Shown here piece by piece: positions 5,436-34,825 of a stretch of 64,000 nucleotides of DNA. The notes below the pieces were generated by a model. That model did no database searches. It had not been told where the DNA came from and saw nothing but the letters and a program-made list of their open reading frames with translations. The position numbers and the translations under genes are program-made. How positions within the stretch are numbered: the first letter of the stretch is position 1; each line of letters starts with the position of its first letter. The stretch is from Saccharothrix ecbatanensis (lineage in GTDB: Bacteria; Actinomycetota; Actinomycetes; Mycobacteriales; Pseudonocardiaceae): NCBI RefSeq assembly GCF_014205015.1, contig NZ_JACHMO010000001.1, forward strand, positions 5,208,001 to 5,272,000, read 5' to 3'.

Positions 5436-6092
5436 GTGGGGGTCGTTCTGTCCGAAGCCGAGTGGACCGCGCGCCGTGACGCGCACGCGGACCGGGTGCG
5501 GCAGTGGACCGGCCCGCACCACGAGCGCAAGGCCACCGGCAGCAAGCACCCGGTGCTGGACTTCCTCTTCTCGTACTACTCGCACCGCCCGTCCCGGCTG
5601 GAACGCTGGCACCCCGGCCCCGGCGTGGTGCTCGAAGGCGACGCGGCGCGCGCCTACCTCAAGTGGCCCGTCTACCGGCGCACCGACGACGGCGTGACGC
5701 TGGACGTCGAGGCGTTCGCGCGGGAACGGGCCAACACGATCGGGTTCGCCGGTCGCCTGCTGACCGCCACCGCCGGCCGCGCGCCCCGGCTGGGCTGCTT
5801 CGGCTTGCACGAGTGGGCGATGGTGTACCGGCAGCAGCCGGAGCAGGTGCGGCACAACGCGTGGCCGCTGCGCCTGGGCAGTGAGGGCACCGACGAGGTG
5901 GTCGAGTCGCAGCGGGTGCAGTGCGGGCACTTCGACGCGTTCCGCTTCTTCACGCCCCCGGCGAGGCCGCTCAACGCGCTCCAGCCGACCCGCGAGACCC
6001 AGGCGGAGCTGGAGCAGCCGGGCTGCCTGCACGCCAACATGGACATCTTACCTAACGTGTCACGTAGCGCTGACCAGGGCATACCTAGCTAG
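5436..6092 (+). pseudogene. 3-methyladenine DNA glycosylase-type gene, 5' fragment fused to phage codons
   Basis: The first 202 codons match the actinobacterial proteins annotated 3-methyladenine DNA glycosylase ('KHPVLDFLFSYYSHRP', 'GCFGLHEWAMVYRQ', 'CGHFDAFRFFTPPARP', 'LEQPGCLHANMD'). At 6043 the prophage begins and the frame reads 16 phage residues to a stop at 6090-6092. The missing end (LFKWAYKL...) is at 34540-34825. Joining 5436-6043 to 34540-34825 gives 894 nt, an intact 297-residue frame, which fixes the insertion point. The truncated 218-residue product lacks the conserved C-terminal third and is probably inactive. The enzymatic name comes from family annotation and is not established by sequence alone. 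Confidence 0.88.
6037..6043. other. attL: attL core of prophage
   Basis: The 7-bp core ACATGGA recurs at 34533-34539 (attR). Left of it the sequence is host glycosylase gene; right of it is AT-richer phage DNA starting with half of an inverted repeat (ACCTAACG, 6050-6057). Confidence 0.85.
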
Positions 6093-7000
6093 AGAAGATC
6101 ATCTAGCCGACGCTGGCAGGCTGCTACAGCGTTCGCCCGATCGGGACCGAACATCATCACTGCTAGCTCAAGTCGTTGACGTGCAAGCGGAATCGCCTTC
6201 ACAACACCATTGACGGCTAGAGCGTGGAACGCCCTTCCTGCCTCACGGTGTGCGTGTGCCTCATGACCAGAGGCGTAAGGACGGTTGACCTCTGGGAGGT
6301 TGACTAGATCCACACGTGACCAGGCATCGTCAGCTAGGCCAACGTGCCTCACGGTTCCTTCCCAATCTCCTAGGGCAGCGTGCGCGTGAGCCATCACCCC
6401 GTGAGCGGTGAACTGGTGAACATCCCTCTTGGGGTTCAACGACCGCAGTAGCTCTAGGGCGTTCTGTGCGCCGTTGCTCTCAACCATGAACTTTGCAAGA
6501 TCAATCGTCACAACCGCGTGCAACTCATGATCATGTGCCGAGAGATCAAGAGCAGTGCGGAACGCTCCCGTTGCTTGCTTCCCACGTCCCGACTCTGACA
6601 GGGACCATGCCAACCGATCGGCAAGCCTGCCTGCCTGCCATGACATAGCTAGACGGGTGCTGTCCGGCATCGTCTGCTTGAGCAGCGAGCTAGCCCACGT
6701 CCATTGAGCTTGAGCCATCGGCACCGACGCTTGACCACCATGCCGCAGACCAACGGCTGTAATGACGTCTGTGGCTTGAGACAGCAGCTCTACGTCTGGT
6801 GACCCCACCGACGTACGTTCGAACGCCAGAGACACGCCTAGGGCATCTTCGTACGCCTTCACGTGTTCGGGCCTTACTGCCCTGACCCCTGTCTCAAGTT
6901 GACCTAGGTGTGCCTTGCTGTAGTTGGTCCTGGTGCTCATCGCGGACAGCGAGAGACCAGCAGCCACGCGGGCTGTCCTCAACCTCTCGGGTAGCTCCAC
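6089..7000 (-). CDS. XRE-family HTH regulator with TPR-like C-terminal region
   Basis: This 303-residue protein starts with GTG at 7000, with GAGGTGAT just upstream. Residues 5-58 are an XRE-type HTH ('LRTARVAAGLSLSAMS...YSKAHLGQLETGVR'). The rest is a long helical region rich in Ala/Leu with 'ALGDWEGTVRHVGLADDAW'-like TPR helices, a common actinobacterial layout. It is the gene nearest attL and is divergent from three small plus-strand genes, the typical place for a phage immunity or decision regulator. Its GC content is higher than that of the structural genes, suggesting acquisition from an actinobacterial host. Confidence 0.85.
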   Translation of the reverse strand: MELPERLRTARVAAGLSLSAMSTRTNYSKAHLGQLETGVRAVRPEHVKAYEDALGVSLAFERTSVGSPDVELLSQATDVITAVGLRHGGQASVPMAQAQWTWASSLLKQTMPDSTRLAMSWQAGRLADRLAWSLSESGRGKQATGAFRTALDLSAHDHELHAVVTIDLAKFMVESNGAQNALELLRSLNPKRDVHQFTAHGVMAHAHAALGDWEGTVRHVGLADDAWSRVDLVNLPEVNRPYASGHEAHAHREAGRAFHALAVNGVVKAIPLARQRLELAVMMFGPDRANAVAACQRRLDDLL

Positions 7001-7013
7001 TGATCACCTCTGA

Positions 7014-7043
7014 TTGCAGACGCTTGCAGACGCGCTGATCAGC
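7014..7043. promoter_or_regulatory. Candidate operator of the XRE regulator
   Basis: A perfect 10-bp tandem repeat TTGCAGACGC (7014-7023 and 7024-7033) is followed directly by the palindrome GCTGATCAGC (7034-7043). It sits 14 nt upstream of the XRE start, in the divergent control region. Confidence 0.5.
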
Positions 7044-7156
7044 CTAAACCCCTGGTGCGGAGGTTGGAATAGAGGTAGGTCGCACCTGCTCGGTACTTCC
7101 CCCTTGATACCGGGTGGGTGTGGCTACCCAACTTCCCCCATCAATGGAGTACAGAG

Positions 7157-7411: not shown

Positions 7412-7413
7412 CT

Positions 7414-7716: not shown

Positions 7717-7737
7717 GACACAAACAAGTAAACAAAA

Positions 7738-7786
7738 AAGACCCCCGATAGTCTTAGGTGTAAACCTTTGATCTATCGGGGGTCTT
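7738..7786. terminator. Bidirectional intrinsic terminator
   Basis: A perfect 14-bp inverted repeat (7738-7751 with 7773-7786) with A-rich flank on the left and T-rich flank on the right separates the convergent small plus-strand operon and the minus-strand tail genes. Confidence 0.85.
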
Positions 7787-8364: not shown

Positions 8365-11300
8365 CTAATAGGCTAATCTATTCCCTGAATCAAGGGCACC
8401 GTGAGTCGGATCTTCCAACTTCCATACCGTTTGATTCTGTGCTGGTGAAACCTCAATGGCTGTAGTCCATTCGAGCTTTGCACCGTTGATACTTATACTC
8501 TCTTCGATATACTCCACAAACCCGCTTAGTTCCCCGGCAACTAGGCCGTTCTCAAGAGCTAGCGAACCATGAAGATGATCCGAGATTCTTACTGCCTTGC
8601 AAAACTCTGCCGTAGCATCGTTGGCCGTATAGTTGAATATCAATTGATCAAACCTCGGGTAAGGTTTGCCATTGGTTGCAACCAACCATTGAGCTGTGTA
8701 ACGGCTGACGTCCGGATCAGCTGAAATAAATGTCGCGCTGTAAGTATACCTACCGTACTGATTGAGTGAGTCTGCATTAACAGCCCTACGGGTAGGCATT
8801 CCATCGTCAAGCTCATCAACATGAACAGACTGAATGATTGCCTCATTGATTATCTTGGTGGCATCGGGACCACCCTTTAATCCTTCATCCGTCTCAGGCT
8901 GTATGTCCTGACCAACACCTATCGACCATGATTGGTTACTATCGCCGCCGTTATTGAATCTCTGTTCCTTGTTCTCATAGATCATCTGACCATCATTACC
9001 GGCGAATATCTGACCGCTAATAGTTGTGGCAACATCACCCAACAATTCAATGGGTGTAACACCCCCTGACCATGAAGGAGTTTGTAACCTATGCAAAGAT
9101 TCAGGGGTATTGCCGTCTCTTGTTCTGACAATAGGAGGTATACCCGGCTGGTGAGCAAGGTCAAGGATATGTTCAATTCTTAGCTTCTCACTTTCCCGGC
9201 TACGTAATCCACTACCTGAGCGCCAATGTTCCAATATCTGACTGTCTGATAGTTGATAGTCGAACATCTCAAAGTGCCCTATGTGACCATTGAACGGATA
9301 CTGGACACCCCCGTTTATATTCATGTTGAACTGTCCGGCTTTGTATAAACCACCTATATGAGTCTCGTCAAAAGACCAGTCAAACAAGCTGAAGCTTTCG
9401 ACCAATGAGCCATCAAGGTAAATCCGGGTATTCTCACCATCAGTGGTTATTACTATGTAGTGCGGCTGATCATCCGTATCCAAGTCAGAGGGATTTGTGT
9501 AAATTCCATAGCTCCAAATACCTGCTTCAAATCCTCCCGAGGTCAGTCGAGCAAAGGCACCCCTTAATGAGTTTAGTTTGCTGTCCAGTTGTCCGAAGAT
9601 TATTTCGGCAGAACCTGACGATATGACTTCCGAATGCTTGAACCAAGCACCGATTGAAAAGCCACGTCCAGGACTCGGATTGATTGCGCTGTCTTTCAAT
9701 CTGATTATCTGACCAGAATAAATACTTCCCGATGGTGTGAACTTATAAGAACCACCTTCATTGTCTGATAGTCCGGCTAATGTCACACCCGAGTCATACT
9801 CTGCACCCCAACCATCAGGAGTGCCACGAGTGTAAATCTCAGGTTCCGTAGCGATTCGACCTGCATAGTCCGAAATAACATCGTCGTTAAGCGGAAGATA
9901 AACAAGCGGGTCATCTTTCAATACAGCAGCACGCATCGGCGTTTCCAATGTCGCCCTAGCTAATACTCCTAGATTGTCGTAGCAATCAAGATTGATTGAG
10001 TAGAAACGCATATCATCTATCGCCATACTTCTATAATCATCATTGCGCTTATCCACTCGACCGGTGAACCTGACATTCTCATATTCACCCGGCTCAAGTT
10101 CGTAACCATCCGGACCTATGTATTCATCAGAGAAGGTATATCCAATCTGATATGAACCATGATCCGGAAAGGTGAAGACCAGTGCGAATGTCCACGCACG
10201 CCAAGGAACATCCGGAGCAAGCATGTCAATCGAGATGGTCTCACCTGGCGCATTAGGCATGTCGAGTGTGATAGCGGTATCCCAAGCTATCAAGCCTTTG
10301 TATCCACGTGCGGAAAAGATATTCAATACCGAGTCACTGTCTACTGACGTGTCACGGCCATTGCTTCCAATCCATACACCCTGTACCTCAGTGCCAATCG
10401 GTAAGTCATATCCGGCATAGGTGATGTCAGCCAAGTATCTAGTTCTAGTTCTTCCCGAGTGCTGCCACCTGAAGACCCTACGAACATCATTCGTCTGATC
10501 ATTGCCATATGACAGGTAAATACTTGAGTTATCCTCAGGCACTTCAACGTCATAAACCGTTGTTCGTGTGAGCGTCGATTCATCTACCGTAGATACGGCA
10601 TTCAATCCAACCGGAACACGTCCAAAAGTGATGTCATCTATGTAGACAACACAGATGTCAGAGCTAGACCCCTGCACTCTGAGAGATAGCGCAATGGCGG
10701 TTGCATCGTCAGGAACATCAAGGTCCCAAGTGTATTCCGCCCAATCTTCTGATATAACCACCGGAGTAAATGCGGTATAACCCGCCGTTATCAACTCATG
10801 GTTGTACTTGTATGCGAGCTGAATATTTGTAGCTGAAGCATTGGCACGCTTAGCCATTATCGAGAATCTGAACACCCTTCCCGATTCAACCCATAAGGGA
10901 TATAGCGATGTACTCCTACTAAGAATCCAACTGCTTGACGTGAAGGTGGTTGCTTTCGTGACACTTGCGAATCTCATACCCGACGGCGCACCGGCTGTAT
11001 TATCCGTCTTGTGAACAACAGTCGCACCACTACCCACTGAAGTAATGTTCTTCAATGCCAGGTGGTCGATATCTTCCAATGTTCCCAAGCGCTCGAACTG
11101 ATTATATTCTCTTACATCCTCCGTTCCTGATGTTTGGTGAACAGCAAAGGCGTCCATAGACAAATCATATCCAGCAGCACCGAATGTCATAATGACCATT
11201 GCTCCATAAACATTCGTCGGCGCTGTCCACGTTCCTGAATACTTTGTCCACCCGGCGCTTGCGGCAATTACCGTTGTCCATATAGTCGTGGTTACTGAAA

Positions 11301-12474
11301 ACTCGTCCCTGACTAGCATGTTGACAGTGGATGCTGTAGCAATCCTATTCCTTATGTAGACAGAAAAGTTATAGGTAAAGCCGGGCTCAACGGGAATATT
11401 GAAGTGCGTTCCCGATGCACCGAAGTACAGCGCATGTGTTCCCGATCCTGCCACTTCTGTTTGCACTCTTATACATTGAGCACCATTGATCGACTCGGTA
11501 GTAATAACCGAGGGATTGATTCGCACATCAAACATGTGATTAGGAATCGTCGCAGTGGTAAATGTATCCATGTTGTATATTCCCGGCGCTCTAATCAAGC
11601 TAGCCTGATCACGTAGGACAGTGTCAGAGCCGATGGTGTTCTGTGGATAATCCTTGATTTTGAACTGGTTACCCGGCAATGCCACACGTACCGGTGTAGC
11701 GGCATCTGGCGCACGTGAATACAAGTCGTCAACCGCAAACGGCTTCAATGCTGTTCCATTGGCAAGTTCATATGCCTCATCATAAGCGTGAAGCATGAAC
11801 TTGGAAAACCTTATTGTCTTCACAAAACCTGAGAGTGGAACAAATATGTCAGAGCCGATAGAGGCATAAGCAGCATTTGCCGGTGCCTGAACAATCCCAT
11901 GAACCCTTTGTTCCGTAGTCGGGTTGATGACAAAGTCGTTATGGAATTCGTCAGAGCTGATGAATCCACCCGACTTTGTAAGCCAATAGATTTTACCGAT
12001 CATAGGATAGTTCGAGTCATGTGCGGTAATCTCTTGGACAGCCATGCTCGCAACATATTGTTTATGTGGCGTGACCTTTGCGCAGTATTCGAGGTCCGGC
12101 CCTAATCGCCAATCCATGATATGAGTGTCATATGACTGATCAAATTCGACTCGACCTATCCCAGTAGGGCCGACAAAAGTCATGTCAACTTCAGGGAAGA
12201 TTGTCAATGACTTTTCATCTTCATGCAAGTAATCCAGGCAAGCCCTAGAGAATCCGTTGACATAATCCGAATCGTCATAGTTTAAAACATATGAAATGTC
12301 ATCGCGGTCAATATCAATATCAATCGCCGCACTGCCCGGAGTAAACTCCGCGCGTTCTGAATCCCTACCGCGAGATATTCTTATGTTCCTGACATTGTCT
12401 ACAGACCCGTATGCAGGGAAGGCCCATACCGCCGAATTCTGCTTATCTATTTCCACCCTTAAATCATCGCTCAT
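8365..12474 (-). CDS. Large minor tail protein with carbohydrate-binding and LamG domains
   Basis: ATG 12474 (GGAGGAGCA upstream) is preferred to GTG 12501, giving 1369 residues. The N-terminal 250 residues resemble the tail-hub (Tal-like) region of siphoviruses. Two CBM-type jelly rolls follow at about residues 308-445 and 475-620 (each ending in 'DDITFG' or 'MDAFAV'-like strands), then a LamG/concanavalin-like module near 855-1085 ('LVYLPLNDDV', 'GFSIGAWFKH', 'RIYLDGSLVESF', 'GHIGHFEMFDYQLSD'). The last part is hub-like again. It probably forms the tail tip and binds host wall glycans. It lies 30 bp after the tape measure gene, where Dit and Tal would normally be; no separate Dit was seen. 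Confidence 0.8.
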   Translation of the reverse strand: MSDDLRVEIDKQNSAVWAFPAYGSVDNVRNIRISRGRDSERAEFTPGSAAIDIDIDRDDISYVLNYDDSDYVNGFSRACLDYLHEDEKSLTIFPEVDMTFVGPTGIGRVEFDQSYDTHIMDWRLGPDLEYCAKVTPHKQYVASMAVQEITAHDSNYPMIGKIYWLTKSGGFISSDEFHNDFVINPTTEQRVHGIVQAPANAAYASIGSDIFVPLSGFVKTIRFSKFMLHAYDEAYELANGTALKPFAVDDLYSRAPDAATPVRVALPGNQFKIKDYPQNTIGSDTVLRDQASLIRAPGIYNMDTFTTATIPNHMFDVRINPSVITTESINGAQCIRVQTEVAGSGTHALYFGASGTHFNIPVEPGFTYNFSVYIRNRIATASTVNMLVRDEFSVTTTIWTTVIAASAGWTKYSGTWTAPTNVYGAMVIMTFGAAGYDLSMDAFAVHQTSGTEDVREYNQFERLGTLEDIDHLALKNITSVGSGATVVHKTDNTAGAPSGMRFASVTKATTFTSSSWILSRSTSLYPLWVESGRVFRFSIMAKRANASATNIQLAYKYNHELITAGYTAFTPVVISEDWAEYTWDLDVPDDATAIALSLRVQGSSSDICVVYIDDITFGRVPVGLNAVSTVDESTLTRTTVYDVEVPEDNSSIYLSYGNDQTNDVRRVFRWQHSGRTRTRYLADITYAGYDLPIGTEVQGVWIGSNGRDTSVDSDSVLNIFSARGYKGLIAWDTAITLDMPNAPGETISIDMLAPDVPWRAWTFALVFTFPDHGSYQIGYTFSDEYIGPDGYELEPGEYENVRFTGRVDKRNDDYRSMAIDDMRFYSINLDCYDNLGVLARATLETPMRAAVLKDDPLVYLPLNDDVISDYAGRIATEPEIYTRGTPDGWGAEYDSGVTLAGLSDNEGGSYKFTPSGSIYSGQIIRLKDSAINPSPGRGFSIGAWFKHSEVISSGSAEIIFGQLDSKLNSLRGAFARLTSGGFEAGIWSYGIYTNPSDLDTDDQPHYIVITTDGENTRIYLDGSLVESFSLFDWSFDETHIGGLYKAGQFNMNINGGVQYPFNGHIGHFEMFDYQLSDSQILEHWRSGSGLRSRESEKLRIEHILDLAHQPGIPPIVRTRDGNTPESLHRLQTPSWSGGVTPIELLGDVATTISGQIFAGNDGQMIYENKEQRFNNGGDSNQSWSIGVGQDIQPETDEGLKGGPDATKIINEAIIQSVHVDELDDGMPTRRAVNADSLNQYGRYTYSATFISADPDVSRYTAQWLVATNGKPYPRFDQLIFNYTANDATAEFCKAVRISDHLHGSLALENGLVAGELSGFVEYIEESISINGAKLEWTTAIEVSPAQNQTVWKLEDPTHGALDSGNRLAY

Positions 12475-12504
12475 TGCTCCTCCTTCAATAGGGTAGGGCA
12501 CCCC

Positions 12505-15045
12505 TTATGAGATGCCCCGTCCGCCCGTTCTAATATTCGTTCTTCTAACTAACTTCTGTTCAATCTTTCTGATGACGCTATCCGATATGTCTTCAGGGCT
12601 ACTCGAACTGCTATTGATGGTGATGTTGATTGACCCAACACTTGTTGAGCTAGAGCCAGCATTCATCGGAACATCCGACAATGTGGGCACGCTCGACATA
12701 GCAAGTGGCCCAACACTGCGCATCATCCCGAGGAAGTCTTTTACTTCGTCGGCTGTTTGCACATAACCACTCTTGCTAGGCCAGATCATTTCCATACCTT
12801 CTTCACCAACGACAGTCGGCATATTGGGTTTCATGTGTCCACCCTTGGCTTTAAACTGCATACCCGTTGGCCTACCTCCATAGTAAGAGGTATAGACATC
12901 GTTGTTTACCCGTACCGTAACCGTCTTGCTGTGGATGTTCTGCAATTTATTGATTGCCTCTTGTAGAGGCCAGTTAGCATAATCATTCATACCAAGAACA
13001 ACAGTCTTGCCACCCGGTAAATTAATAACCGCTTGACCTGTCTCATTGATGCGTGCTGTCACACCTGCTGCTTGCAGTTGCGTTGCATTCATGTTCCTTA
13101 CCGCATTGAGCAGTGAAGGTGAAAGGTTGCCGTTGTTGGCCGCTGCAAGATTCAACGTCTCTCGTGTTGCTGCTTGCATTGCCAATTCACCGCGCTTGGT
13201 TTCATTGGTGCCTGTGTATGTCGCTGCTGCCAGTTGAGCCGCAGAATTGATCTGATTTAGTTGTGCTCTTTCCAATGCCCTAGTTGCGTCTGCCGCTTCC
13301 TCTGACGTAGCGCCATTGGTAGCGATAGTTTCCGCCAACTTCTTTTGAGCATCGGCTGTTGCATTGACTGAATCTCGATAAGCAAGATCAGAACCAAGCA
13401 TTGCCATCTGTTGATTGAACTGCTCAATCAACCTTTGCGTTGTTGTCTTGATTGCTTCCGCTGCCAGTCTTTGAGACTCGGCTGACTTATCAGTCTCGGC
13501 ACGTAAAGCCGCACCTGCAATCTGAGCCTCTACTGAGGTAGCGCCATGTTTTTCTATGGCTTCATTGAGATTGACATGAGCCAACTGCACACCAGTCAAA
13601 GAGCCTTTGATCTCGTCATAGCTCTTACGTGATGCGTCAATGGTTGCATTGTTGGTGTCGATCTTCTCATGCAAATCCCTGATCTCTTTTGCAAAAGTAC
13701 CGGCTGCTTTACCGGCTCCCTTTTGTTGACGCTCAAGCTCATTCAATTGAGTCTGGTATTTAGTGTTCTCTGCAACGAGGTCATTAATTTTCTTCCTCGC
13801 GTTGTCAGCTTCGTTACCACCTTTAATCAAAGACTCGGCTAGGGTTCCACCTCTCTTAGAGGCTTCTTCCATGCTCTTTGATGACTGTTCCCAAGCAAGG
13901 GCAAAGACGGTAACGGCAATACCGACAATCGGTAGTGACTTGCCTAGACCCGTAAGGATCGTTCCGACTTTACTACCCGCCGTAGCCACCTTCTCACCAG
14001 CATTAGCCGAACCTGTCAAAGACTCGGTTAGTACACCAGCGGATAGAGCTACGTTTGACACTCGGGTTGAGACACCCTGCAAGCTTGCCGCTATCGCGCC
14101 ACCTGCTGACATGAATGCCCAAGCTGCGCCTAGCGCTTTACCAGCGGTAGCCGCTACCAGCATGGATGCCGCAACGGTGCCTAGGACGCCCGCGAACGGC
14201 TCAAAAGCCTTAAGCAGTGAACTCACTACGCTCAGAGCTGCTGTGACGGCTGTGCCTAGTACGGGCAACGCTCCATCAGCGAGTGATGAGAGCGAACTAG
14301 TGACTTGAGAAATGATCTCTCGAATCTGACCAAAGTTGCCCTCAAAGGCATTCGCCAATTTGGCAAGGATTGATCCGGCAAAACCAAGCACCGTTTGTAT
14401 GATTCGACCTAGTTCGGTAATGAGGGTGGCGCTGCTCTTTGAGCCTGCACTGATGTTGGTAAAGAAGTCATTAAACCCTTCACCCGTATCGCCCATGAGA
14501 CTGCGCATTGCCTTAAGCGGATCATAAGAACTTTCGACCGCTTTACGGAAACCAGGCATAGCGTTCTTGATGAAGTCAGAGACACCTGAACCAAGTTCTC
14601 TCAATCCGGGTTCAGCCGCTAAGAACATAGCTTCTAGATCCGGCTTGATTTCTCGTGCCGTACTTCCTAGTTCTTTTGCTATGCTTACAAAGGTATCCGC
14701 TAAAGGCGCAACTGCATCTTGCGCGATTACCTTTACATCATCCCAGAGGTCAGAGTAGGCAGACCTGACTTCTTCGTTGTTACTTAATACCGCTGCTGCT
14801 ACTACACCTAAAGCAACAGGGATAGCCATTAATCCTGCTGCCACCCCTGCCCCGGCTGCCATACCTAATGCAGGCATTGCACCAAGTATCTTGGCACTTG
14901 TCTTTCCGTAAGAGCTTAATGTAGCACTAAGCTTGTCATGCGCATCTTCTGTTTCTTTGACCGATTGGGCATACTCACGCATTGCCCGTTGTCCATCTTT
15001 GGAGTCTCCAAGTATGCCAATCCTGATCCTTGCATCTTTAGCCAA
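12505..15045 (-). CDS. Tail tape measure protein
   Basis: The 846-residue protein starts with TTG at 15045. It is Ala/Lys/Glu-rich and mostly helical, with a hydrophobic segment near residues 52-90, long coiled coil around 400-640 ('ARKKINDLVAENTKYQTQLN'), and a C-terminal 'KAKGGHMKPNMPTVVGEEGMEM'-like motif seen in many actinophage tape measures ('GEeGpE'). It follows the overlapping tail chaperone pair, the invariant position for this gene. Length predicts a tail of about 120-130 nm by the usual 0.15 nm per residue rule. Confidence 0.92.
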   Translation of the reverse strand: MAKDARIRIGILGDSKDGQRAMREYAQSVKETEDAHDKLSATLSSYGKTSAKILGAMPALGMAAGAGVAAGLMAIPVALGVVAAAVLSNNEEVRSAYSDLWDDVKVIAQDAVAPLADTFVSIAKELGSTAREIKPDLEAMFLAAEPGLRELGSGVSDFIKNAMPGFRKAVESSYDPLKAMRSLMGDTGEGFNDFFTNISAGSKSSATLITELGRIIQTVLGFAGSILAKLANAFEGNFGQIREIISQVTSSLSSLADGALPVLGTAVTAALSVVSSLLKAFEPFAGVLGTVAASMLVAATAGKALGAAWAFMSAGGAIAASLQGVSTRVSNVALSAGVLTESLTGSANAGEKVATAGSKVGTILTGLGKSLPIVGIAVTVFALAWEQSSKSMEEASKRGGTLAESLIKGGNEADNARKKINDLVAENTKYQTQLNELERQQKGAGKAAGTFAKEIRDLHEKIDTNNATIDASRKSYDEIKGSLTGVQLAHVNLNEAIEKHGATSVEAQIAGAALRAETDKSAESQRLAAEAIKTTTQRLIEQFNQQMAMLGSDLAYRDSVNATADAQKKLAETIATNGATSEEAADATRALERAQLNQINSAAQLAAATYTGTNETKRGELAMQAATRETLNLAAANNGNLSPSLLNAVRNMNATQLQAAGVTARINETGQAVINLPGGKTVVLGMNDYANWPLQEAINKLQNIHSKTVTVRVNNDVYTSYYGGRPTGMQFKAKGGHMKPNMPTVVGEEGMEMIWPSKSGYVQTADEVKDFLGMMRSVGPLAMSSVPTLSDVPMNAGSSSTSVGSINITINSSSSSPEDISDSVIRKIEQKLVRRTNIRTGGRGIS

Positions 15046-15051
15046 GTTACA

Positions 15052-15285
15052 TTAGGCCCCCTTTCCTCGGGATTTCTTCATTTGCTTTTGCTGCTCTTCG
15101 ACTTGCTCTTTCATCTCGTCTATGTAGACGTTGAACTCAAAAGACGTCAAGTCGTAGATATCCCTTAAGTTGAACCCAAAGAATTGGGCTGCTCTAACCA
15201 AACCCTTAAGCCTTTCCGTCTGTATCGCTTTCAGGCTTTTTACGTGGGTTTCTCTTTTTCTTCTCGCCGTCTTTGGACGGCTCAC
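15052..15285 (-). CDS. Tail assembly chaperone, frameshift extension (gpT-like)
   Basis: A 77-codon frame overlaps the end of the upstream chaperone gene (15206-15661) by 80 nt and ends 7 nt before the tape measure start. It is offset +1 (equivalent to -2) from that gene, and no good ribosome binding site precedes it. Its 'FFGFNLRDIYDLTSFEFNVY' region resembles phage tail chaperone second ORFs. By analogy with lambda G/G-T, it is most likely translated as a fusion after programmed frameshifting, possibly at the A7 run 15286-15292, where AAA can re-pair perfectly one base forward. Confidence 0.75.
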   Translation of the reverse strand: MSRPKTARRKRETHVKSLKAIQTERLKGLVRAAQFFGFNLRDIYDLTSFEFNVYIDEMKEQVEEQQKQMKKSRGKGA

Positions 15286-15661
15286 TTTTTTTGTCTTCCT
15301 CCATAGCCTCTAGTTGTCTCTTGGCTAGTTCGGCAAACAACTTGTAAAGCACTAAACCGGGTAGAGCTAAAGTCTGGTCATAGGTCCAAGACTTGTCCTG
15401 TGTTCGTGCAAGAATCCAGATGAATTCCGCAGATAGTTCTTTGGTGTGTTCTCGCACGATGTTTCCGAACTCATCGGTTACATAACTCCAAGAACCATCG
15501 TCCTTGACTTCCTTCTTAGGGATTCCGGTAAATAGATCGTCATACGGATGGTTACGCACTTTCTCAAAGTGGATAATGTCACCGATGGTTACTAGGTCAC
15601 CCCAACCAAAACTGAAGTTGAACCCGTTGTCAAACTCATATACTTCATGTCCTTCTGTCAT
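15206..15661 (-). CDS. Tail assembly chaperone (gpG-like)
   Basis: The 151-residue protein lies directly upstream of the tape measure gene. It has an acidic, compact N-terminal region and a Lys/Glu-rich tail ('EEDKKSEPSKDGEKKKRNPR') that spans several A-rich slip candidates. Position, size and the overlapping second frame identify it as the gpG-type chaperone that coats the tape measure during tail assembly. Confidence 0.8.
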   Translation of the reverse strand: MTEGHEVYEFDNGFNFSFGWGDLVTIGDIIHFEKVRNHPYDDLFTGIPKKEVKDDGSWSYVTDEFGNIVREHTKELSAEFIWILARTQDKSWTYDQTLALPGLVLYKLFAELAKRQLEAMEEDKKSEPSKDGEKKKRNPRKKPESDTDGKA

Positions 15662-15677
15662 TGTTCCTCCAATAAAG

Positions 15678-15704
15678 TAGCCCCCTATTGTGAGCCGGGG
15701 GCTA
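15678..15704 (-). terminator. Intergenic hairpin within the structural operon
   Basis: A perfect 8-bp stem (TAGCCCCC 15678-15685 with GGGGGCTA 15697-15704) lies between the gp10-like gene and the chaperone gene, with T-rich sequence after it on the minus strand. It may reduce transcription into the chaperone and tape measure genes. Confidence 0.6.
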
Positions 15705-15709
15705 GGGCT

Positions 15710-16150
15710 TTAATACTGTGACTGTATGGTTTCGAGAAGCTTGTTTACTGCCTCTAACCATTTCTGTTCTATCTCCGATTTGTTAGCCCGGATAGTAGGA
15801 AATAGGAAGTAACCGGGTCCGCCTTCAAAGGCATCACTGCTGTTGTTCCCTCTCCACGGTTTGAACTGCTTGTATTTCTTAGACCCAAACTCAGCACCAA
15901 ACGCATATGGTCTTGTTGTCTTCTTTAAGAAGACTGCTACTGATGATCCCGAACCACTTGCAGATAAGGCGGGAGCAGCTTTATTAGCCACTCCCCCCAA
16001 ACTTGACGCCTTGGCTTTGGCAAGCTCGACAACATGTTGAGCAATGCTCTTGTTGACTTTTGCCAATTGCTTCGGTGCCTTGTCGTCCATCTGCTTTAGG
16101 TCTTTACGCAATCTGCGAAAACCATTCGCACCTATAACATAGGCAGGCAT
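15710..16150 (-). CDS. HK97 gp10-like tail/neck protein
   Basis: The 146-residue protein opens 'GANGFRRLRKDLKQMDDKAPKQLAKVNKSIAQ' as in HK97 gp10-like proteins and has 'RPYAFGAEFGSKK' and 'GGPGYFLFPTIR' in the middle, also typical. Its ATG overlaps the tail tube stop (TAATG). In most siphoviruses this gene precedes the tail tube gene; here it follows it. It probably helps join tail to head. Confidence 0.7.
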   Translation of the reverse strand: MPAYVIGANGFRRLRKDLKQMDDKAPKQLAKVNKSIAQHVVELAKAKASSLGGVANKAAPALSASGSGSSVAVFLKKTTRPYAFGAEFGSKKYKQFKPWRGNNSSDAFEGGPGYFLFPTIRANKSEIEQKWLEAVNKLLETIQSQY

Positions 16151-17169
16151 TACGCGGTTGTATCCGGAGTCAAGAGCACTACGGTAATCGGGTTGTCACC
16201 CTGACCTGAGTTTGCAGGCCAAAGAACATTACCGCTTACTGTCTGTTCCAACATCTGAATACCATCAATAGTTGTTGATGCGCTGGTGAAAGAAACTACC
16301 GGCAGAGTGATTGTCAAGGTAGACAATCCGCCACCCGCTTCAGCTTCGGTAGCAGTCCAAGTTAGGACTACTTCCGCTTGTGCGTCCGATTCCCCTGCTG
16401 CTGCAACACGTAGTTGGTCATCAAGGTCTTCAAACTGTGCAGTAAACTCAATGGTCAATTCATCGTGACCGTTCTGCTTTGGTTCTTTCTTCAAGCCGGT
16501 ACCGTTGATGTAATAACGGTCTGTCTTGAGGTTCTTGTTTCCCTTTAGGCTTACGTCAATAATTTCTCTTGTCGAACCACCTACGGTTACTGAGCCTTCA
16601 AAGAACTTGAATGTTTTGACGCCCGTTGGGTAAGTCGGTGTCTGCGCTGCCAGAGGTCCGGCACCCGCACCAACATTCTCTTTCTGGAAATCAAGACCTA
16701 AGTTAAGCATTAGGAAGTTATCAACTGAGTTAGATAGTTCCCACTCGGTTACCTTTCCACCTTGATAGGTCATGATATGTGCGTTACCTTCGGAGTCATG
16801 CAACTTCTTCTGAAGTGTGAATGACTTACCGGCAGTGTCGCCCAGTTTGAATGTATGTTCTGTTACACCTAGTGCCGTCGCGCCTGTTGTTACCGAACCG
16901 AGCATGTGCTTTAGCCAGAATGCGAAACCTTGGTTATCGAATTCCAGTTCTAAGTTTCCACTTGCGCCTTTAGGATTTCTTGCAACTCTTTCAGAATTGA
17001 CTGTGTATTCTCCAGCTTTGAGACCGGCTGACATGATGACATTGCTATAGTCTCCTTCAACTGTTTCACTGTTGAATACATAGAACTTGTTTACAGCTAC
17101 GGGGGTTCCATAAGTTACTTCGTCTTTAGTACCCACATAGCCATCAATGATGTTTGCTATTTCAAACAT
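16150..17169 (-). CDS. Major tail tube protein
   Basis: The 339-residue protein shows the beta-rich composition of tail tube proteins ('GYVGTKDEVTYGTPVAVNKF' start, 'MTYQGGKVTEWELSNSVDNFLMLNL' middle), matching the 'phage tail tube protein' family of actinophages. It is followed at once by a gp10-like protein and chaperones. It should polymerise into the tail tube around the tape measure. Confidence 0.82.
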   Translation of the reverse strand: MFEIANIIDGYVGTKDEVTYGTPVAVNKFYVFNSETVEGDYSNVIMSAGLKAGEYTVNSERVARNPKGASGNLELEFDNQGFAFWLKHMLGSVTTGATALGVTEHTFKLGDTAGKSFTLQKKLHDSEGNAHIMTYQGGKVTEWELSNSVDNFLMLNLGLDFQKENVGAGAGPLAAQTPTYPTGVKTFKFFEGSVTVGGSTREIIDVSLKGNKNLKTDRYYINGTGLKKEPKQNGHDELTIEFTAQFEDLDDQLRVAAAGESDAQAEVVLTWTATEAEAGGGLSTLTITLPVVSFTSASTTIDGIQMLEQTVSGNVLWPANSGQGDNPITVVLLTPDTTA

Positions 17170-17814: not shown

Positions 17815-18597
17815 TTAAGCTACCCCCGGCATTTGAAATGCTTTGTTCTTCAAGAAAACATCTACTTCAGGCACCGGTGATAGAACACCCCTGATACCCG
17901 CCACTGTTACGCGGTAGGTGTTGCCGTTCCCATCGGTCAAGCTCTCTGTGTTGGCTGGTGTCTTGTTGGTCTTGGCACCGACCACGTACACAGCAAGCGC
18001 TAGGGCTGCTGCTCTGCTGTCCGCAGTCACGTCTAGGCCGTAGTCATAGACAACGGTCGCTGTAGGGCCTGTGAGGCCGGTAAGCACCCCGTCAGGTGTC
18101 CAGTCATCCGAGTAGCTAGAGCCATCCACAGTGACCACCTGGCGCACGTCCACCCGGCTTAGGGCTGCTGTGCCTCCCCTGACAGACACCAGCTCGCTAC
18201 GGCGTCTAGGGACAAAGCCCCGGTTGGTCGCTGTCTCGAACGTTTCCGTTATCTCGTCACGTACCGCCCTCAAAATCTCGGGCGTGTAGGTCTTGGTTAG
18301 ACCTCTCAAAGTCATTAGCGCTTGAAGCTCTGATACTTCAAATAGATGGGCACCAACTATCTCGTCATAAGTAGTCTCGTCATGGATAGTTCCATTCCAT
18401 TCAATACTTATAACTCCTAATGTCGATTGGGAAGGTAATGTGAATGAATAGACATTGCCCAACTTAATAGTTGAGCCTGAATGGATAGCGTCGCCATCGG
18501 CATTTAATACCGTCACTGTTACTGTTCCGGCATCGGCCACAACATCGTTAACATAGAAGGTATGACTTACGGTTTCACTCTTACCCTTCTTAATCAT
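17815..18597 (-). CDS. Head-tail connector protein
   Basis: The 260-residue protein has a beta-rich N-terminal domain (residues 1-95) and a C-terminal helical region with 'ILRAVRDEITETFETATNRGFVPRR', typical of phage head-tail adaptors of the gp6/gp15 type. Bases about 17990-18250 are clearly richer in GC than both ends of the gene, as if the connector domain came from another phage or host background. It overlaps the upstream small gene by 4 nt (ATGA). Confidence 0.65.
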   Translation of the reverse strand: MIKKGKSETVSHTFYVNDVVADAGTVTVTVLNADGDAIHSGSTIKLGNVYSFTLPSQSTLGVISIEWNGTIHDETTYDEIVGAHLFEVSELQALMTLRGLTKTYTPEILRAVRDEITETFETATNRGFVPRRRSELVSVRGGTAALSRVDVRQVVTVDGSSYSDDWTPDGVLTGLTGPTATVVYDYGLDVTADSRAAALALAVYVVGAKTNKTPANTESLTDGNGNTYRVTVAGIRGVLSPVPEVDVFLKNKAFQMPGVA

Positions 18598-18842
18598 TCA
18601 TTCACCTTCTTTCTTCGTGTTCTCTTTTCGGGTGTCTTGACGGTAGCGGTTTCTTTGTTGCTTCCATCAAAAAGCTGGTCAGCCTGATAACCCGGCGCTA
18701 GTTCAGCTCTGTTGTTGGCAATCAAAGAGACTGCTTCCGCATGACTTATGCCCATTTCATCGGTGTCTATGACCTCACCTTTTGGCAACCACGGTTTAGC
18801 TTCCACTGTCACGCCATAGTTTCTTTTCATTAATAACTTCAT
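18594..18842 (-). CDS. Small phage head-region protein (82 aa)
   Basis: It lies between capsid and connector genes with a strong AAGGAGG ribosome binding site. It contains 'EVIDTDEMGISHAEAVSLIANNRAELAP', reminiscent of small 'head-fibre or head-completion' genes at this position, and a Lys/Arg-rich tail ('PEKRTRRKKVNE'). No confident family. Confidence 0.6.
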   Translation of the reverse strand: MKLLMKRNYGVTVEAKPWLPKGEVIDTDEMGISHAEAVSLIANNRAELAPGYQADQLFDGSNKETATVKTPEKRTRRKKVNE

Positions 18843-18862
18843 CTGACCTCCTTCACAAAGGA

Positions 18863-18885
18863 ACCCCGGCCATATTGACCGGGGT
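18863..18885 (-). terminator. Hairpin after the capsid gene
   Basis: ACCCCGG (18863-18869) pairs perfectly with CCGGGGT (18879-18885), about 40 nt past the capsid stop on the minus strand. A terminator after the most highly expressed gene is common. Confidence 0.6.
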
Positions 18886-18925
18886 ATTCCTCATTGTTTT
18901 TCTCTTAGCCTTTAGCTAGCTTCTC

Positions 18926-20086: not shown

Positions 20087-20140
20087 GGATAAATCATCTC
20101 CTGTGTTTTATTTAGTTGTCCTTTCTATACGATTGGACGG

Positions 20141-22210: not shown

Positions 22211-23857
22211 CTATTTCATAAACTGAGAAGCAGGGATAAAGAACGCTGATTGTTCTTCTTCCTCGGGTTCATACGCGACATAGACCGCATTAATTAATGC
22301 TGCTAGTCCATCGATCTTGCCTTGCGACTTTCCTTTATGGATCATCACCCGGTCAAAGTTGTCACGGGTTAATACGGCATTCTCTACGTTCCACTTCAAT
22401 ACAGGATTCATGCCGTGATATAGGCGCTTGTCCAATACCCATGTCTCAAGCTGAGACGTAGGTTCAGACAGGTTTTTGTAACCCTGCTTGATGTCGATTA
22501 GGTCTTGCCCTGTTGCCTTCTCGATACGTTGTGAAAGGTCTCTTGCCCCCCACTTGTCGATACCGATTAGCTCGACATTGAAGTCCTGGCAATCCATGAC
22601 TACTTGATCAATAACCGCGTCATACTGGATTTCTTCACCATCGAATATGGTCAAGAATCCTTCTGCCTGCCACTCAAGCAATTGATCTGCTGTGACGTTC
22701 TTTGGGTTCTCAAGACTCCATTGAGTCATGAAAGCTCTCAGAACTACGGTATAACCGGGGTCATCTGCATTCTCTGGACTACCAGGGAATAGCAAAGCCC
22801 AACCTGTCAGGTCTTTCTTTGAAGACAAGTCAAGGCCACCATAAGCCATACGACCATGTAACAACTCTTCTATTACCGGTCCCCCGGACATTCCCGAGTC
22901 ATACCAACGCGTCTCGTCAAGCCATGATCCACCTTCATTACCCCAAATATTCAGGTAATAGGCTTTGAACCACGGTATCAAGTGAGGCTTTTTCTTAGCC
23001 TTGACGTACTCGCCTCTAAGGAACTCGATCGAGTTTGCCTCACCGATAGACGGGTTTGCTTGCTTCCAAACTTCTTCGTTTTCCCAATCGGCATCTTCGT
23101 CAAGAGGTCGCATGAAAACCAAGTGCTGTTTGTTCTTTGACTGGTCTTCAAATACCTCTTTGTCTGCCTGCCATTCTTGATATCCGAACTTGTGTCGGTT
23201 CTTGTAACCGGCAGTAGAGATACCAATGAACAAAGGTTCGGCTGTAGAGCCCTGACCACCAACCAGTGAGTTGATAAAGTCGGAACTCTTTTGAACGGCC
23301 AACTCATCAATAATGATGGTGGTCGGTTCGCTACCAAGTTTTACGTCATCACCTTGGGCCACAACCTTCAAGATGCTTCCCGTTGGCACGTGCTCAATCT
23401 GTCGCCAACCATTACGGATCTTGAATATCTTCGGGTTGTTCAGCCACTTGTTAGCCTTAATAAACCCCTTGGCTTGGGTGAATATCTGTTCCGCTTGACC
23501 ACCGGTCAAAGCACCACAAAGGATGGTGGCCTTACCCGGCATGTCCATAGACAGCAAGTAGATTGCCAACGCTGCTATAAGCGTGGTCTTACCGTTCTTA
23601 CGCGGAATCCATATGTGCGTACTGCGGTACTGTCTTACGTGTCTTCGAAGTTCCTCGGAATAACGAACGGTCCCGAACAACTTCGTAATGTGCTCTTGTT
23701 GCCATTCAAGCAACGTCATTTGTTTACCCTGGTTGAATCCAGAGCTTAAGATCATTGCGTTCTGTAGGAAGTCGGTTACCTGTTGCGCCCTTGACTCATC
23801 GAAAAGGTATTCGGTGTCATGTGCGTTGTCCGGTCTCCAAGGTGCGTAGGTTAACAA
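22211..23857 (-). CDS. Terminase large subunit
   Basis: The 548-residue protein has the ATPase Walker A-type loop 'PRKNGKTT' (about residue 85), Walker B 'TIIIDELA' (about residue 185), and a C-terminal nuclease domain with 'AYGGLDLSSKKDLTGW', whose Asp is the first metal ligand of the RNase H-like fold, and later 'ELIGIDKWGA'. It belongs to the Terminase_1 (HK97/phiC31-like) group. It cuts and pumps phage DNA through the portal. Confidence 0.95.
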   Translation of the reverse strand: MLTYAPWRPDNAHDTEYLFDESRAQQVTDFLQNAMILSSGFNQGKQMTLLEWQQEHITKLFGTVRYSEELRRHVRQYRSTHIWIPRKNGKTTLIAALAIYLLSMDMPGKATILCGALTGGQAEQIFTQAKGFIKANKWLNNPKIFKIRNGWRQIEHVPTGSILKVVAQGDDVKLGSEPTTIIIDELAVQKSSDFINSLVGGQGSTAEPLFIGISTAGYKNRHKFGYQEWQADKEVFEDQSKNKQHLVFMRPLDEDADWENEEVWKQANPSIGEANSIEFLRGEYVKAKKKPHLIPWFKAYYLNIWGNEGGSWLDETRWYDSGMSGGPVIEELLHGRMAYGGLDLSSKKDLTGWALLFPGSPENADDPGYTVVLRAFMTQWSLENPKNVTADQLLEWQAEGFLTIFDGEEIQYDAVIDQVVMDCQDFNVELIGIDKWGARDLSQRIEKATGQDLIDIKQGYKNLSEPTSQLETWVLDKRLYHGMNPVLKWNVENAVLTRDNFDRVMIHKGKSQGKIDGLAALINAVYVAYEPEEEEQSAFFIPASQFMK

Positions 23858-23863
23858 TCATGG

Positions 23864-24238
23864 TCACTTCCTCAACAGCGCACGCATGTAATCAGGGACT
23901 TCTTCAGTCTCTTCTGACTTGTCCTCTTGCGCTAAAGCTTTCTTGTCAGCGGGAGTGAATCCGAATCTCTTGGAGATTTCCAATATGGTTTGATTGCAGC
24001 CCTGTTGAATCAAGGTCGCTGGATTTCTCGCGTATGTATCCTGGCGAGAATCAACGAGTAAGCCTTGCTCATCTATCGCGGTTTCACACTCGTCACGTCT
24101 CTTTACCGCAATACAATATGATGCATACGGTTGCACATTCTGCGCTACGTCGTATTCATTCTCTTTCATGTACGGCAATAATCGGTTCCATTCATCAAGT
24201 GCTTTTCCTATTACTGAATCTGGCGCATCAAAGGCCAT
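23864..24238 (-). CDS. Terminase small subunit (P27 family)
   Basis: The ATG at 24238 is favoured because AAGGGGTG lies upstream; a longer frame from 24271 is possible. The protein of 124 residues is helical, with 'YCIAVKRRDECETAIDEQGLLV' as in P27-type small terminases and an acidic C-terminal tail. It sits 6 bp before the large subunit gene. It should recognise the packaging site, which may lie in the upstream non-coding stretch. Confidence 0.8.
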   Translation of the reverse strand: MAFDAPDSVIGKALDEWNRLLPYMKENEYDVAQNVQPYASYCIAVKRRDECETAIDEQGLLVDSRQDTYARNPATLIQQGCNQTILEISKRFGFTPADKKALAQEDKSEETEEVPDYMRALLRK

Positions 24239-24607
24239 ATCATTCACCCCTTCCCGGCATGTTTTATTCATTCATCGTGCATACCCATACATGACCCGTG
24301 TTTGTATCAACTTTTGTTTATGCAGGTCAGTTTTTTCACAGAACCAAATGACGCGGGTCTAGACATAGGTACCCTCTAGACTTTTTTGGACTGCATGGGG
24401 GTACCCTATGTATGATTATGCATTGTATGTGCATAGTGTTTTATTCATTTATTTTCTATTTCAAATCAAAGAATGAATGATAGTAGGACCATGTGTGTCT
24501 ATATATATGTCATTGGTATTGCTTACTACTCATCTCCTACCCCTTCCCCGCCGTACTACCTACCGTCTATACCTGGTTACTCTGTGTATAAGTTGGAGTG
24601 GATTAGG
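24239..24607. other. Non-coding divergent region upstream of terminase and Lsr2-like genes
   Basis: No gene is supported in these 369 bp. It holds an imperfect inverted repeat (ACATAGGTACCC 24363-24374 with GGGTACCCTATGT near 24399-24411, one bulged base), a palindromic GTCTAGAC at 24356-24363, AT-rich tracts (24420-24515), and a possible -10 TATAAG at 24587-24592 for the Lsr2-like gene. It may contain the minus-strand late promoter and the packaging start site. Confidence 0.5.
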
Positions 24608-32483: not shown

Positions 32484-32503
32484 GCTTAGGCATTACCTAG
32501 TGG

Positions 32504-33859
32504 CTAGTCAGGAAACACAAGCTGATCGGGATGGAACCTAGTTCCCTTTGCCCCCGTAGGCTTGACACCAACCACCGGGAACAAACGCTTGATAGTTGCT
32601 CGCTGCTGGTCAACACTCGCGTTGAAGAAAGCTTGAGCGTCATCTACAGGCAACTTGGCTTGCTTGGCAGAGGTCTTACGCAATGCCTTGATTTTGTTCT
32701 CGGCATCCTGGCGAACGTCAACGAAGTCGGCAAGAGTAATCATCTCTGCCTTCCATGCGTTGCGTGCCTCATCAATCTTGCGTTCTAGCCTTTCAATCTC
32801 CTTTGCATTGTCATCGTCTAGCGGTACGTCCTTGACTGCCGGAAGCATCTTGATTGCTTTGTAGGTCAGGGAGATCATGAATTCGTCAACAGCCTTCATG
32901 TTGCGGACAATCTTTCCACAACCACCACGACTGACATTGCAGTAGTAACTAGGTGCCTTACCCCCTAGTCCCTTACCGCAGAGGTCACAGACAAGAATGC
33001 TGGTAAGCAAGTGCTTACGGGCAGTGTTGCGGGAATACGGTTCATTGTTCTCAACCGCAGTCAGGATCTCGGCGTGCTCTTCGACAGTGAAAATCTTCTC
33101 CCACTTGCCTACTCCGACAACCTCACCTTTGAATGCCCTCAATCCAGCGTGCGTAGGGTTGGTAACCATCTTGATGAGGTTCTGACTTTTCCACGGCTTA
33201 CCCGAGTAGGGCAATCTGCCAGCAGCATTGAACTCTTTGCACAAGGCATAGGCAGATTCACCCGCAATCATTCGCTTGCGTGCCTCTTGCAAGAGCTTCT
33301 TTTCCTCGGGAACCGTAGCCGAGAAGTCATAGACATAACCATAGGTGCGGTTCTTTGAGATCGGGGGTTCCCCCGCTTCCGCACGTTCGAGCTTCTGCCT
33401 TGATACCCGTCTGGCAGTATCGGCAGATGATTTGTTTGCAATGCTTACCAGGATACGGGCAACCATCTTCCCGTTGTCCGTACTCAAGTCGATCTCACCG
33501 GTTACAACAGCATTGGGAATCCCAGTTTCCTCAACAATGTCAATGAGGTTTTCAAGGTCTCGGTTCTGCCTTGCAACACGGTCAAGGTCATAGGCAATGA
33601 TGCCATCAATGACCCCTGACTTTAGATCAGTGAGAAGCTTCTCCCACTCATCGCGCACAACATCTTTCTTGTACGCGGATACATCATTGTCACAGTAGAT
33701 GTGACTAGAGGTTCCCCACCTTTTAAGGTCAGCAACCTTCAAACAGTCTTTCGTTTGCCTATCGACACCCGCAGTCTCATCTACCGTACCAGGTAGAATC
33801 TCCGAGATACGTACATAGACACCCGCATTCTTGGGTATATAGCCCTTTGGGTATCGCAT
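32504..33859 (-). CDS. Large serine integrase
   Basis: The 451-residue protein has the resolvase catalytic domain at residues 10-150: nucleophile Ser19 in 'GVYVRIS', 'DNDVSAYKKD', and 'AYDLDRVARQNRDLENLIDI' with the active-site Arg pair. A Recombinase domain ('KNRTYGYVYD', 'NPTHAGLRAFKG') and a zinc ribbon ('CDLCGKG', 'YYCNVSRGGCG') follow, then a coiled coil near 355-410 typical of integrases that need a directionality factor for excision. It is convergent to the early operon and adjacent to attR, as usual. Confidence 0.95.
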   Translation of the reverse strand: MRYPKGYIPKNAGVYVRISEILPGTVDETAGVDRQTKDCLKVADLKRWGTSSHIYCDNDVSAYKKDVVRDEWEKLLTDLKSGVIDGIIAYDLDRVARQNRDLENLIDIVEETGIPNAVVTGEIDLSTDNGKMVARILVSIANKSSADTARRVSRQKLERAEAGEPPISKNRTYGYVYDFSATVPEEKKLLQEARKRMIAGESAYALCKEFNAAGRLPYSGKPWKSQNLIKMVTNPTHAGLRAFKGEVVGVGKWEKIFTVEEHAEILTAVENNEPYSRNTARKHLLTSILVCDLCGKGLGGKAPSYYCNVSRGGCGKIVRNMKAVDEFMISLTYKAIKMLPAVKDVPLDDDNAKEIERLERKIDEARNAWKAEMITLADFVDVRQDAENKIKALRKTSAKQAKLPVDDAQAFFNASVDQQRATIKRLFPVVGVKPTGAKGTRFHPDQLVFPD

Positions 33860-33872
33860 CTATCTTACCTTT

Positions 33873-33908
33873 CTTGTTAGTACCATTATAACAAGATATG
33901 TGGTACTA
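33873..33908. promoter_or_regulatory. Integrase promoter with overlapping operators
   Basis: On the minus strand a consensus -10 TATAAT (33890-33885) lies 25 nt before the integrase start. Two overlapping perfect inverted repeats cover it: CTTGTTA/TAACAAG (33873-33879, 33889-33895) and TAGTACCA/TGGTACTA (33878-33885, 33901-33908). The divergent endonuclease gene starts at 33941, so both could be controlled here. Confidence 0.65.
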
Positions 33909-33940
33909 TGGAAGTATTCTAAGAAAAGGATTGATGTAAA

Positions 33941-34825
33941 TTGAAGAAGTGTAATAAGTGCTTAGTTGAAAAGGAGTTGGTTGATTTCTCTCCCTCTAGA
34001 ACACATAGCCAAGGTGTAAAAGGAACCTGCAAAGCTTGTATAGCGAAAGAACGCAAAGAGGCTAGAGAGACAAAGAGGGTTGCAGAGGGTAGAAAGAAAG
34101 TTAACCGCGCTCCCTATATCGCCCCCGATGGTTTCAAATGGTGCGGCTCATGCTCCAATTTCAAGCCTTTAGACGGGTTTCATAAAGCAGCCACAATCTG
34201 TGCCTCTTGCGCCTCCAATCAAGCGTGGCTACTGAGATTGAAGTTATATTCAATTACCAAAGAGCAATACGACCAGCTATTAGCTAGCCAAGGTGGGGTT
34301 TGTAAGATTTGTAAGGAACCCGAAACTAGACGCTCTCCCAATGGCGTTGTTCACAGGTTGTCGATTGATCACAACCACTCATGCTGTGCAGATATCGCCA
34401 CTTCCTGTGGCAAGTGCATTCGTGGTTTGCTGTGCCATCGCTGTAACCTGATGATCGGTCGGGTTGCCGACAGTCCAGACCTCCTACTAGCTATGAGGGA
34501 CTACCTGATGGAAGACCCCCACTCGTTAGGTGACATGGATCTGTTCAAGTGGGCCTACAAGCTCGACCCGGCCACGCCGTCCGAGCTGGTCGCGGACTGC
34601 TTCGAGCTGGCATTGCGGATTCGCGAACTGGACATGCGGGCGAGCCCGTACGACCTGTCCGAGTTGGGCTACCGTCCGGTGCCGATCGAAACGGTCGACG
34701 GCCGGGCCGAGTACGTGCGGCAGCAGAGCGCGTTCGCCGAGGCCGCCGCCCCGTTGAGAGCCCGGCTGATCGACCTCACGCGGGTGTTGTCGCACTTCAC
34801 CCGTTCCGCGGATGTCACCTGTTAG
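33941..34825 (+). CDS. Endonuclease VII-like HNH protein fused in frame to host C-terminus
   Basis: TTG 33941 opens a 294-residue frame. Residues 1-195 are phage: N-terminal Cys clusters ('CNKCLVEKELVDFSPSRTH', 'WCGSCSNFKPLDGFHKAA'), then the recombination-endonuclease VII core ('GVCKICKEP', 'LSIDHNHSCC', 'RGLLCHRCNLMIG'). At 34539 the prophage ends and the frame continues through the host glycosylase gene's last 95 codons. In the excised circle, 33941-34539 joins 6044-6092 and gives a 215-residue protein ending ILPNVSRSADQGIPS. So the lysogen makes a chimera. The enzyme family resolves branched DNA or cuts at packaging; the effect of the extra domain is unknown. Confidence 0.85.
   Translation: MKKCNKCLVEKELVDFSPSRTHSQGVKGTCKACIAKERKEARETKRVAEGRKKVNRAPYIAPDGFKWCGSCSNFKPLDGFHKAATICASCASNQAWLLRLKLYSITKEQYDQLLASQGGVCKICKEPETRRSPNGVVHRLSIDHNHSCCADIATSCGKCIRGLLCHRCNLMIGRVADSPDLLLAMRDYLMEDPHSLGDMDLFKWAYKLDPATPSELVADCFELALRIRELDMRASPYDLSELGYRPVPIETVDGRAEYVRQQSAFAEAAAPLRARLIDLTRVLSHFTRSADVTC
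34533..34539. other. attR: attR core of prophage
   Basis: ACATGGA is identical to attL (6037-6043). Just left is CGTTAGGT (34524-34531), which in the excised circle pairs as a perfect inverted repeat with ACCTAACG (6050-6057), 14 nt apart and centred on the core. Confidence 0.85.
34540..34825 (+). pseudogene. 3-methyladenine DNA glycosylase-type gene, 3' fragment
   Basis: These 95 codons ('LFKWAYKLDPATPSELVADC', 'LRIRELDMRASPYDLSELGY') are the conserved C-terminal part of the host gene whose 5' part is at 5436-6043. The fragment has no start of its own and is read through from the phage endonuclease gene. Excision should restore the gene exactly. Confidence 0.88.

Follow-up and report, generated by a model that had tools for sequence, protein, structure and literature searches.

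An Apparent Integration Hot Spot within a Conserved Actinobacterial Gene, Occupied by a Serine-Integrase Prophage in Saccharothrix ecbatanensis

The prophage and its junctions

The stretch of DNA analyzed here (the window, 64,000 nucleotides; G000:C1:5208001-5272000) is part of the 9.69-Mb single-contig genome of Saccharothrix ecbatanensis (completeness 98.05) and contains a 28.5-kb prophage inserted in a host gene of 894 nt. The prophage occupies positions 6044-34539, with a guanine-plus-cytosine content of 47% compared with 71-73% in the flanks. The 5′ part of the host gene (residues 1-203 of 297), recognized from the joined frame and the alignments of relatives, is located at 5436..6043 (+) and the 3′ part, from codon 203 onward, at 34540..34825 (+), where it is fused in frame to a phage gene for an endonuclease VII-like protein (33941..34539, +, starting with TTG). 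Preceding the endonuclease gene is that of a large serine integrase of 451 aa (32504..33859, −), comprised of Resolvase (PF00239, E 5e-21) and Recombinase (PF07508, E 6.4e-9) domains, with ∼670 bp between the start of the gene and the core of the right attachment site (attR). At the opposite end of the prophage, 45 bp separate the core of the left attachment site (attL) from the 3′ end of the gene for an XRE-type regulator of 303 aa (6089..7000, −), with a helix-turn-helix (HTH) match across its N terminus.

A 7-bp core, ACATGGA, is present at both junctions, at 6037..6043 (+) in attL and at 34533..34539 (+) in attR. The circular form of the phage has this core flanked by CGTTAGGT (34524..34531, +) and ACCTAACG (6050..6057, +), the two arms of the phage attachment site (attP), which are inverted repeats of one another and give an imperfect palindrome with a dyad score of 15 of 26 pairs. 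The empty bacterial site (attB) is visible in all eight of the closest family matches (L003-L010), where the gene is unbroken, the alignment blocks stop at 6044-6049 and resume at 34533, and the flanks match on both sides. An earlier note on this DNA had anticipated such an uninterrupted gene in relatives, and a protein of Saccharothrix sp. NRRL B-16314 (P0001), 94% identical, is the nearest to that of the host gene. The insertion itself is certainly beyond chance.

Joining 5436-6043 to 34540-34825 produced an open frame of 894 nt (297 aa), and joining 33941-34539 to 6044-6092 an open frame of 648 nt (215 aa), both as the earlier note had proposed. The corresponding chimeric proteins in the lysogen are 218 aa (host) and 294 aa (endonuclease) in length. 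As the crossover codon encodes Asp (GAC or GAT) in all four versions, the real exchange amounts to 94 and 15 residues; the host protein loses 94 and gains a phage-encoded tail of 15 past the common Asp codon (6044..6092, +), with the reverse for the endonuclease. The values of 95 and 16 given previously had counted the common Asp codon as changed and are corrected here.

The interrupted proteins and the phage gene content

The host protein belongs to a family that is widespread and highly conserved in actinobacteria, with a mostly helical and confident predicted structure (predicted local distance difference test, pLDDT, of 95) and a database name that looks unsupported. The label "3-methyladenine DNA glycosylase" stems only from the labels of source records, many in number (P0001-P0120). 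No Pfam or NCBIfam family was matched at an E value of 0.01, and the best sequence match in the PDB was to a glucanase with an E value of 0.69. Structure searches returned nothing at E ≤ 0.001 (Foldseek) and no glycosylase among the 50 matches listed (VIA-align), results with which a glycosylase fold is still compatible. Matches to the Tag- and Mpg-type families sit elsewhere in the same genome. The placement of attP within the 3′ end of the endonuclease gene and of attB within the host gene was upheld, and the description of the latter as a repair gene was not.

Truncation of the host protein removes 21 of 56 invariant positions (conserved columns) and, mapped on the predicted model, the last two long helices together with part of a third. 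With these elements and 94 residues gone, the protein in the lysogen would be truncated and is probably inactive. The gene is single-copy, the only matches in its own genome being the two split pieces.

The Endonuclease_7 domain of the phage protein (PF02945, residues 100-189, E 2.2e-19) lies complete on the prophage side of attR. In an alignment of 23 of the 120 listed relatives, picked mainly for coverage, the invariant positions include Cys4, Cys7, Cys30, Cys33, Cys121, Cys124, Asp143, His144, Cys165, and Asn169. The chain ends within ∼10 residues of residue 190 in 20 of the 23, and the longer tails of P0129, P0132, and P0154 are dissimilar. The exchanged tail is therefore, as judged by this alignment, not a conserved part of the protein, and the endonuclease is probably unaffected by integration since most relatives end near the point where the tail starts. 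With the domain complete and the tail dispensed with by most relatives, the altered endonuclease activity suggested earlier finds no support.

The prophage possesses the main structural genes, all assigned by family matches and encoded on the minus strand. These are the large and small terminase subunits (22211..24271), the portal, head maturation protease, major head protein, and head-tail adaptor (17815..22043), and a minor tail protein, a tape-measure protein, and a large protein with CBM and laminin-G matches (8365..17169), the last of which is likely to be a tail fiber. Neither a lysis gene nor a directionality-factor gene was identified among the prophage genes. Protein relatives in phage records are distant, the best for terminase and integrase being ∼32-33% identical; a closer integrase relative (66%) is found in one protein cluster (P0241), and a DNA search of the phage records with the leftmost 8 kb of the prophage found no relative. 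Two further HNH endonuclease genes, at 26188-26496 and 29037-29720, are also present.

Insertions at the same codons in other genomes

The host gene was matched in 353 of 390 family genomes and in 205 of 394 class genomes. Eleven family genomes, the present one included, had two matches, and the ten others were inspected with six more. Among the matches listed, at least four other family genomes carry the gene split at residues ∼200-210, both parts being on a single contig with other DNA between them. The inserts in G233, G135, and G312 (13, 13, and 11 kb, respectively) each have an integrase with Resolvase and Recombinase domains beside a junction, and that in G359 measures 2.7 kb. A further insertion is probable in G339, where each piece is on a contig of its own that continues past the break for 0.8-0.9 kb of other sequence, and was left uncounted. 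In addition, G287 retains the host gene only from residue 229.

The integrases of the present prophage, G233, G135, and G312 are only 20-29% identical in pairwise BLAST comparisons, a range that widens to 20-38% when the integrase of G467 (described below) is added. A quick tree of 116 integrases requires five label changes for the five site integrases, the maximum possible, and shuffled labels fare no worse (mean of 4.9); at least two of the changes are forced by the starred branches. The common cores, read by eye, fall at slightly differing codons within 202-206. As elements with very different serine integrases use about the same codons, these comparisons indicate that codons 202-206 of the host gene are a recurrent integration site. 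The DNA of the site is little varied in 16 of the 18 relatives in which a search pattern located it, and the integrases may have converged here because this DNA encodes a near-invariant motif, GCLHxxMDLxK, and therefore stays much the same from host to host.

Convergence of divergent large serine recombinases on single coding-gene sites has been described for a prolyl isomerase gene (33 recombinases) and a magnesium chelatase/protease gene (Durrant et al. 2022, PMC10083194), and the present site therefore belongs to a known kind. The target gene is another one, the word "glycosylase" does not occur in the main text of that paper, and the present site differs in combining insertions that break the gene with others that apparently restore it, together with a linked regulator. 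The Samy prophage of Streptomyces (PMC12924846) likewise has its attB in a conserved coding gene of an actinobacterium, a radical SAM gene that is different from the present target, and for which a DNA-repair label is called speculative there. A literature search by title and abstract, limited to one open collection, found no paper on the present gene as attB.

The class survey yielded ten genomes with two matches besides the present one, which were inspected together with two more. In three, G467, G645, and G555, an intact gene is followed downstream by a second 3′ part that begins at residues 196-202 and lies 48, 5, and 0.3 kb away, respectively. In G467 a serine integrase, again with Resolvase and Recombinase domains, sits beside the far junction and the intervening DNA has terminase, portal, protease, and tape-measure matches; this 48-kb prophage (L101, L102, L115, L116) appears to supply a substitute 3′ end that leaves the host gene full length. 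Displaced and in-use 3′ ends were compared with 14 chosen genes (13 congeneric with G467 and G555, one with G645). The displaced end was the closer in G467 and G555 (top values of 84 versus 78 and 89 versus 78), as expected if the element had supplied the end now in use. Because some elements appear to do so, losing the gene may be costly. In tRNA-dependent lysogeny (PMC10865867) integration likewise breaks a host gene for which the element may carry compensation, there a separate phage tRNA and here, in the restorer-like layouts, a replacement of the 3′ end itself. The present prophage was considered as a restorer and rejected, its 15-residue tail being unlike the host C terminus and its genome holding only the two split pieces; neither a complementing tRNA nor a substitute 3′ end was found in it.

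Two of the other elements carry cargo of their own. The 5-kb insert of G645 (L103, G645:C1:102500-110500) contains genes matching SIR2 and AAA/IetA-like defense models together with a DUF6414 gene, probably a cargo for anti-phage defense at the hot spot, and no integrase was found within it. The G233 element has a tRNA-Leu(taa) gene (L064 14175-14249) between attL and its regulator gene and also carries a DUF2637 gene, a domain found in actinomycete conjugative elements (AICEs). Two of its open reading frames (ORFs), searched against PHROGs, gave no match.

Several candidate layouts were excluded from the counts: adjacent overlapping pieces with no insert (G321, G300), contig ends (G292, G033) or overlapping contig ends (G739), an intact gene with a stray 5′ piece (G051) or with a piece on another contig (G508), a frame break (G432), two matches inside one frame (G434, G589, G608, G732), a weak match (G648), and a match whose start near the site coincides with a contig end (G318, G314, G700).

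The linked regulator and the competing explanations

Relatives of the XRE regulator (E ≤ 1e-25) were found in 4 of 386 family genomes, namely the present one, G233 (68%), G359 (50%), and G287 (45%), at window 6089-7000 (−), L064 13221-14108, L067 1676-2565, and L072 4018-4897. Searches of 24 other genomes of the genus (E ≤ 1e-20), 373 other genomes of the class (E ≤ 1e-15), phage and plasmid records, and viral contigs found none; as the family and class searches scored no more than six first-look candidates in each genome, they may have missed weaker relatives. All three family relatives adjoin the same host gene, broken or cut short. Those of G233 and G359 are next to its 5′ part, as in the present prophage, and that of G287 is ∼0.3 kb from a 3′ remnant starting at residue 229. 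In G359 and G287 the matches to the regulator are spread over two frames, so that these copies look frame-shifted.

The phage and the AICE-like element of G233 therefore appear to share a regulator and a site but not an integrase (20% identical). We favor the explanation that the regulator is a relic from an ancestral element, the integrases having been swapped by recombination between elements stacked at one site, over one in which it serves the site itself. In the fullest version of the latter, the regulator would be a dedicated partner of the site, passed among dissimilar elements, that senses or answers the loss of the split host gene and times excision, the gene-breaking elements then acting as a one-gene switch with a common regulator and interchangeable integrases; this we consider unlikely. 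A phage contig with an integrase 41% identical to the present one (L019) also has an HTH-type regulator, assigned by eye, beside its integrase, and a repressor near attP may accordingly be a common architecture. For the present prophage, the XRE regulator gene would be the best candidate for the repressor.

Taken together, the data are best explained by a temperate serine-integrase phage at a hot-spot attB, with the host protein inactive, the endonuclease keeping its domain, and the in-frame joins coincidental, a reading to which we assign a probability of roughly 0.82. The large serine integrase would join attP, located between the endonuclease and regulator genes, to attB at host codons 202-203, leaving the host protein truncated and inactive in the lysogen. 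The endonuclease would work in both states, exchanging just a poorly conserved tail, and the XRE protein would hold lysogeny.

A number of observations weigh against this reading. Thirty-seven of the 390 family genomes, a set that includes incomplete ones, lack a match to the gene, which suggests that it is dispensable in places. For the small insert of G359, no integrase was found among the two ORFs tested and there is no clear core. The attP dyad is only moderately unusual, being equalled in 39 of 2000 random prophage windows, and is at most suggestive. The site integrases may have fewer than five origins, as G233, G135, and G467 have long branches and a single open group of seven takes in both G312 and G467. 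In the case of G645, the 3′ end in use has the higher top value (70% versus 65%), with the other values mostly on the side of the displaced end.

An alternative is that excision of the prophage regulates the host gene alone when certain conditions prevail. The model would be SPbeta/SprA, a serine-integrase prophage that likewise splits a host coding gene, spsM of Bacillus subtilis, and whose excision restores it (PMC8270828). The precise insertion, open integrase frame, and main structural genes of the prophage are consistent with such a switch, as is the wide occurrence of the gene in family and class. Unlike SPbeta, the present prophage has no identified recombination directionality factor and no sign of developmental excision, and the family genomes with no match to the gene also argue against such a switch. 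We regard a one-gene switch as quite unlikely.

The earlier note had proposed instead a two-gene switch, or active lysogeny, in which integration and excision control both an alkylation-repair enzyme and the phage endonuclease. Both joined frames are indeed open, the restorer-like elements at the same site hint that an intact host gene matters, and comparable excision switches exist in SPbeta and in SpyCIM1, a mobile element that interrupts mutL of Streptococcus pyogenes as a possible switch (PMC4689407). In SpyCIM1 a known repair gene is involved and excision was measured. The host protein here lacks a glycosylase family match, and Tag and Mpg matches are found elsewhere in the same genome. 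The endonuclease domain is untouched. Moreover, the two in-frame chimeras look like a single coincidence and not two: both follow from two genes of the same orientation being cut in the same phase, and by this reasoning the chance is 1 in 3 (1 in 6 if orientation is taken into account). At the other splits, the open frame ahead of the host 3′ part extends for 1 codon (G359), ∼19 codons (G233), and ∼36 codons (G312), and in G135 a long open frame reads into it. Among the 110 loci compared, relatives of the endonuclease VII-like protein (E ≤ 1e-6) turned up at none but the window's own. A two-gene switch as a designed trait is consequently very unlikely.

Least probable of all is control of a phage protein by integration, in which a changed C terminus would alter the stability of the endonuclease: attP does lie inside a coding 3′ end, with a precedent in mycobacteriophage BPs (PMC4557955), but the protein altered there is a repressor losing a degradation tag and here an endonuclease with a complete domain, the exchanged tail is poorly conserved and by eye has no ssrA-like ending, and attP is in the endonuclease gene and not, as in integration-dependent immunity, inside the repressor gene, the candidate for which is separate (6089-7000). 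Insertion of a transposon or insertion sequence was rejected in view of the phage structural genes and the serine-integrase junction, as was an assembly artifact because the genome is a single contig (completeness 98.05) and other genomes break at about the same residues.

The attractive reading of a two-gene switch thus gives way to a testable one, of a phage integrated at a hot spot. Genetic tools for Saccharothrix and its relatives might use the site as a landing pad, and the regulator linked to it could reveal how control of a single site comes to be shared by elements whose integrases differ. Phages, an AICE-like element, and a defense-type island would all land in one conserved actinobacterial gene, and the occurrence at this site of elements that break the gene and others that apparently restore it amounts to a natural experiment on the importance of the gene.

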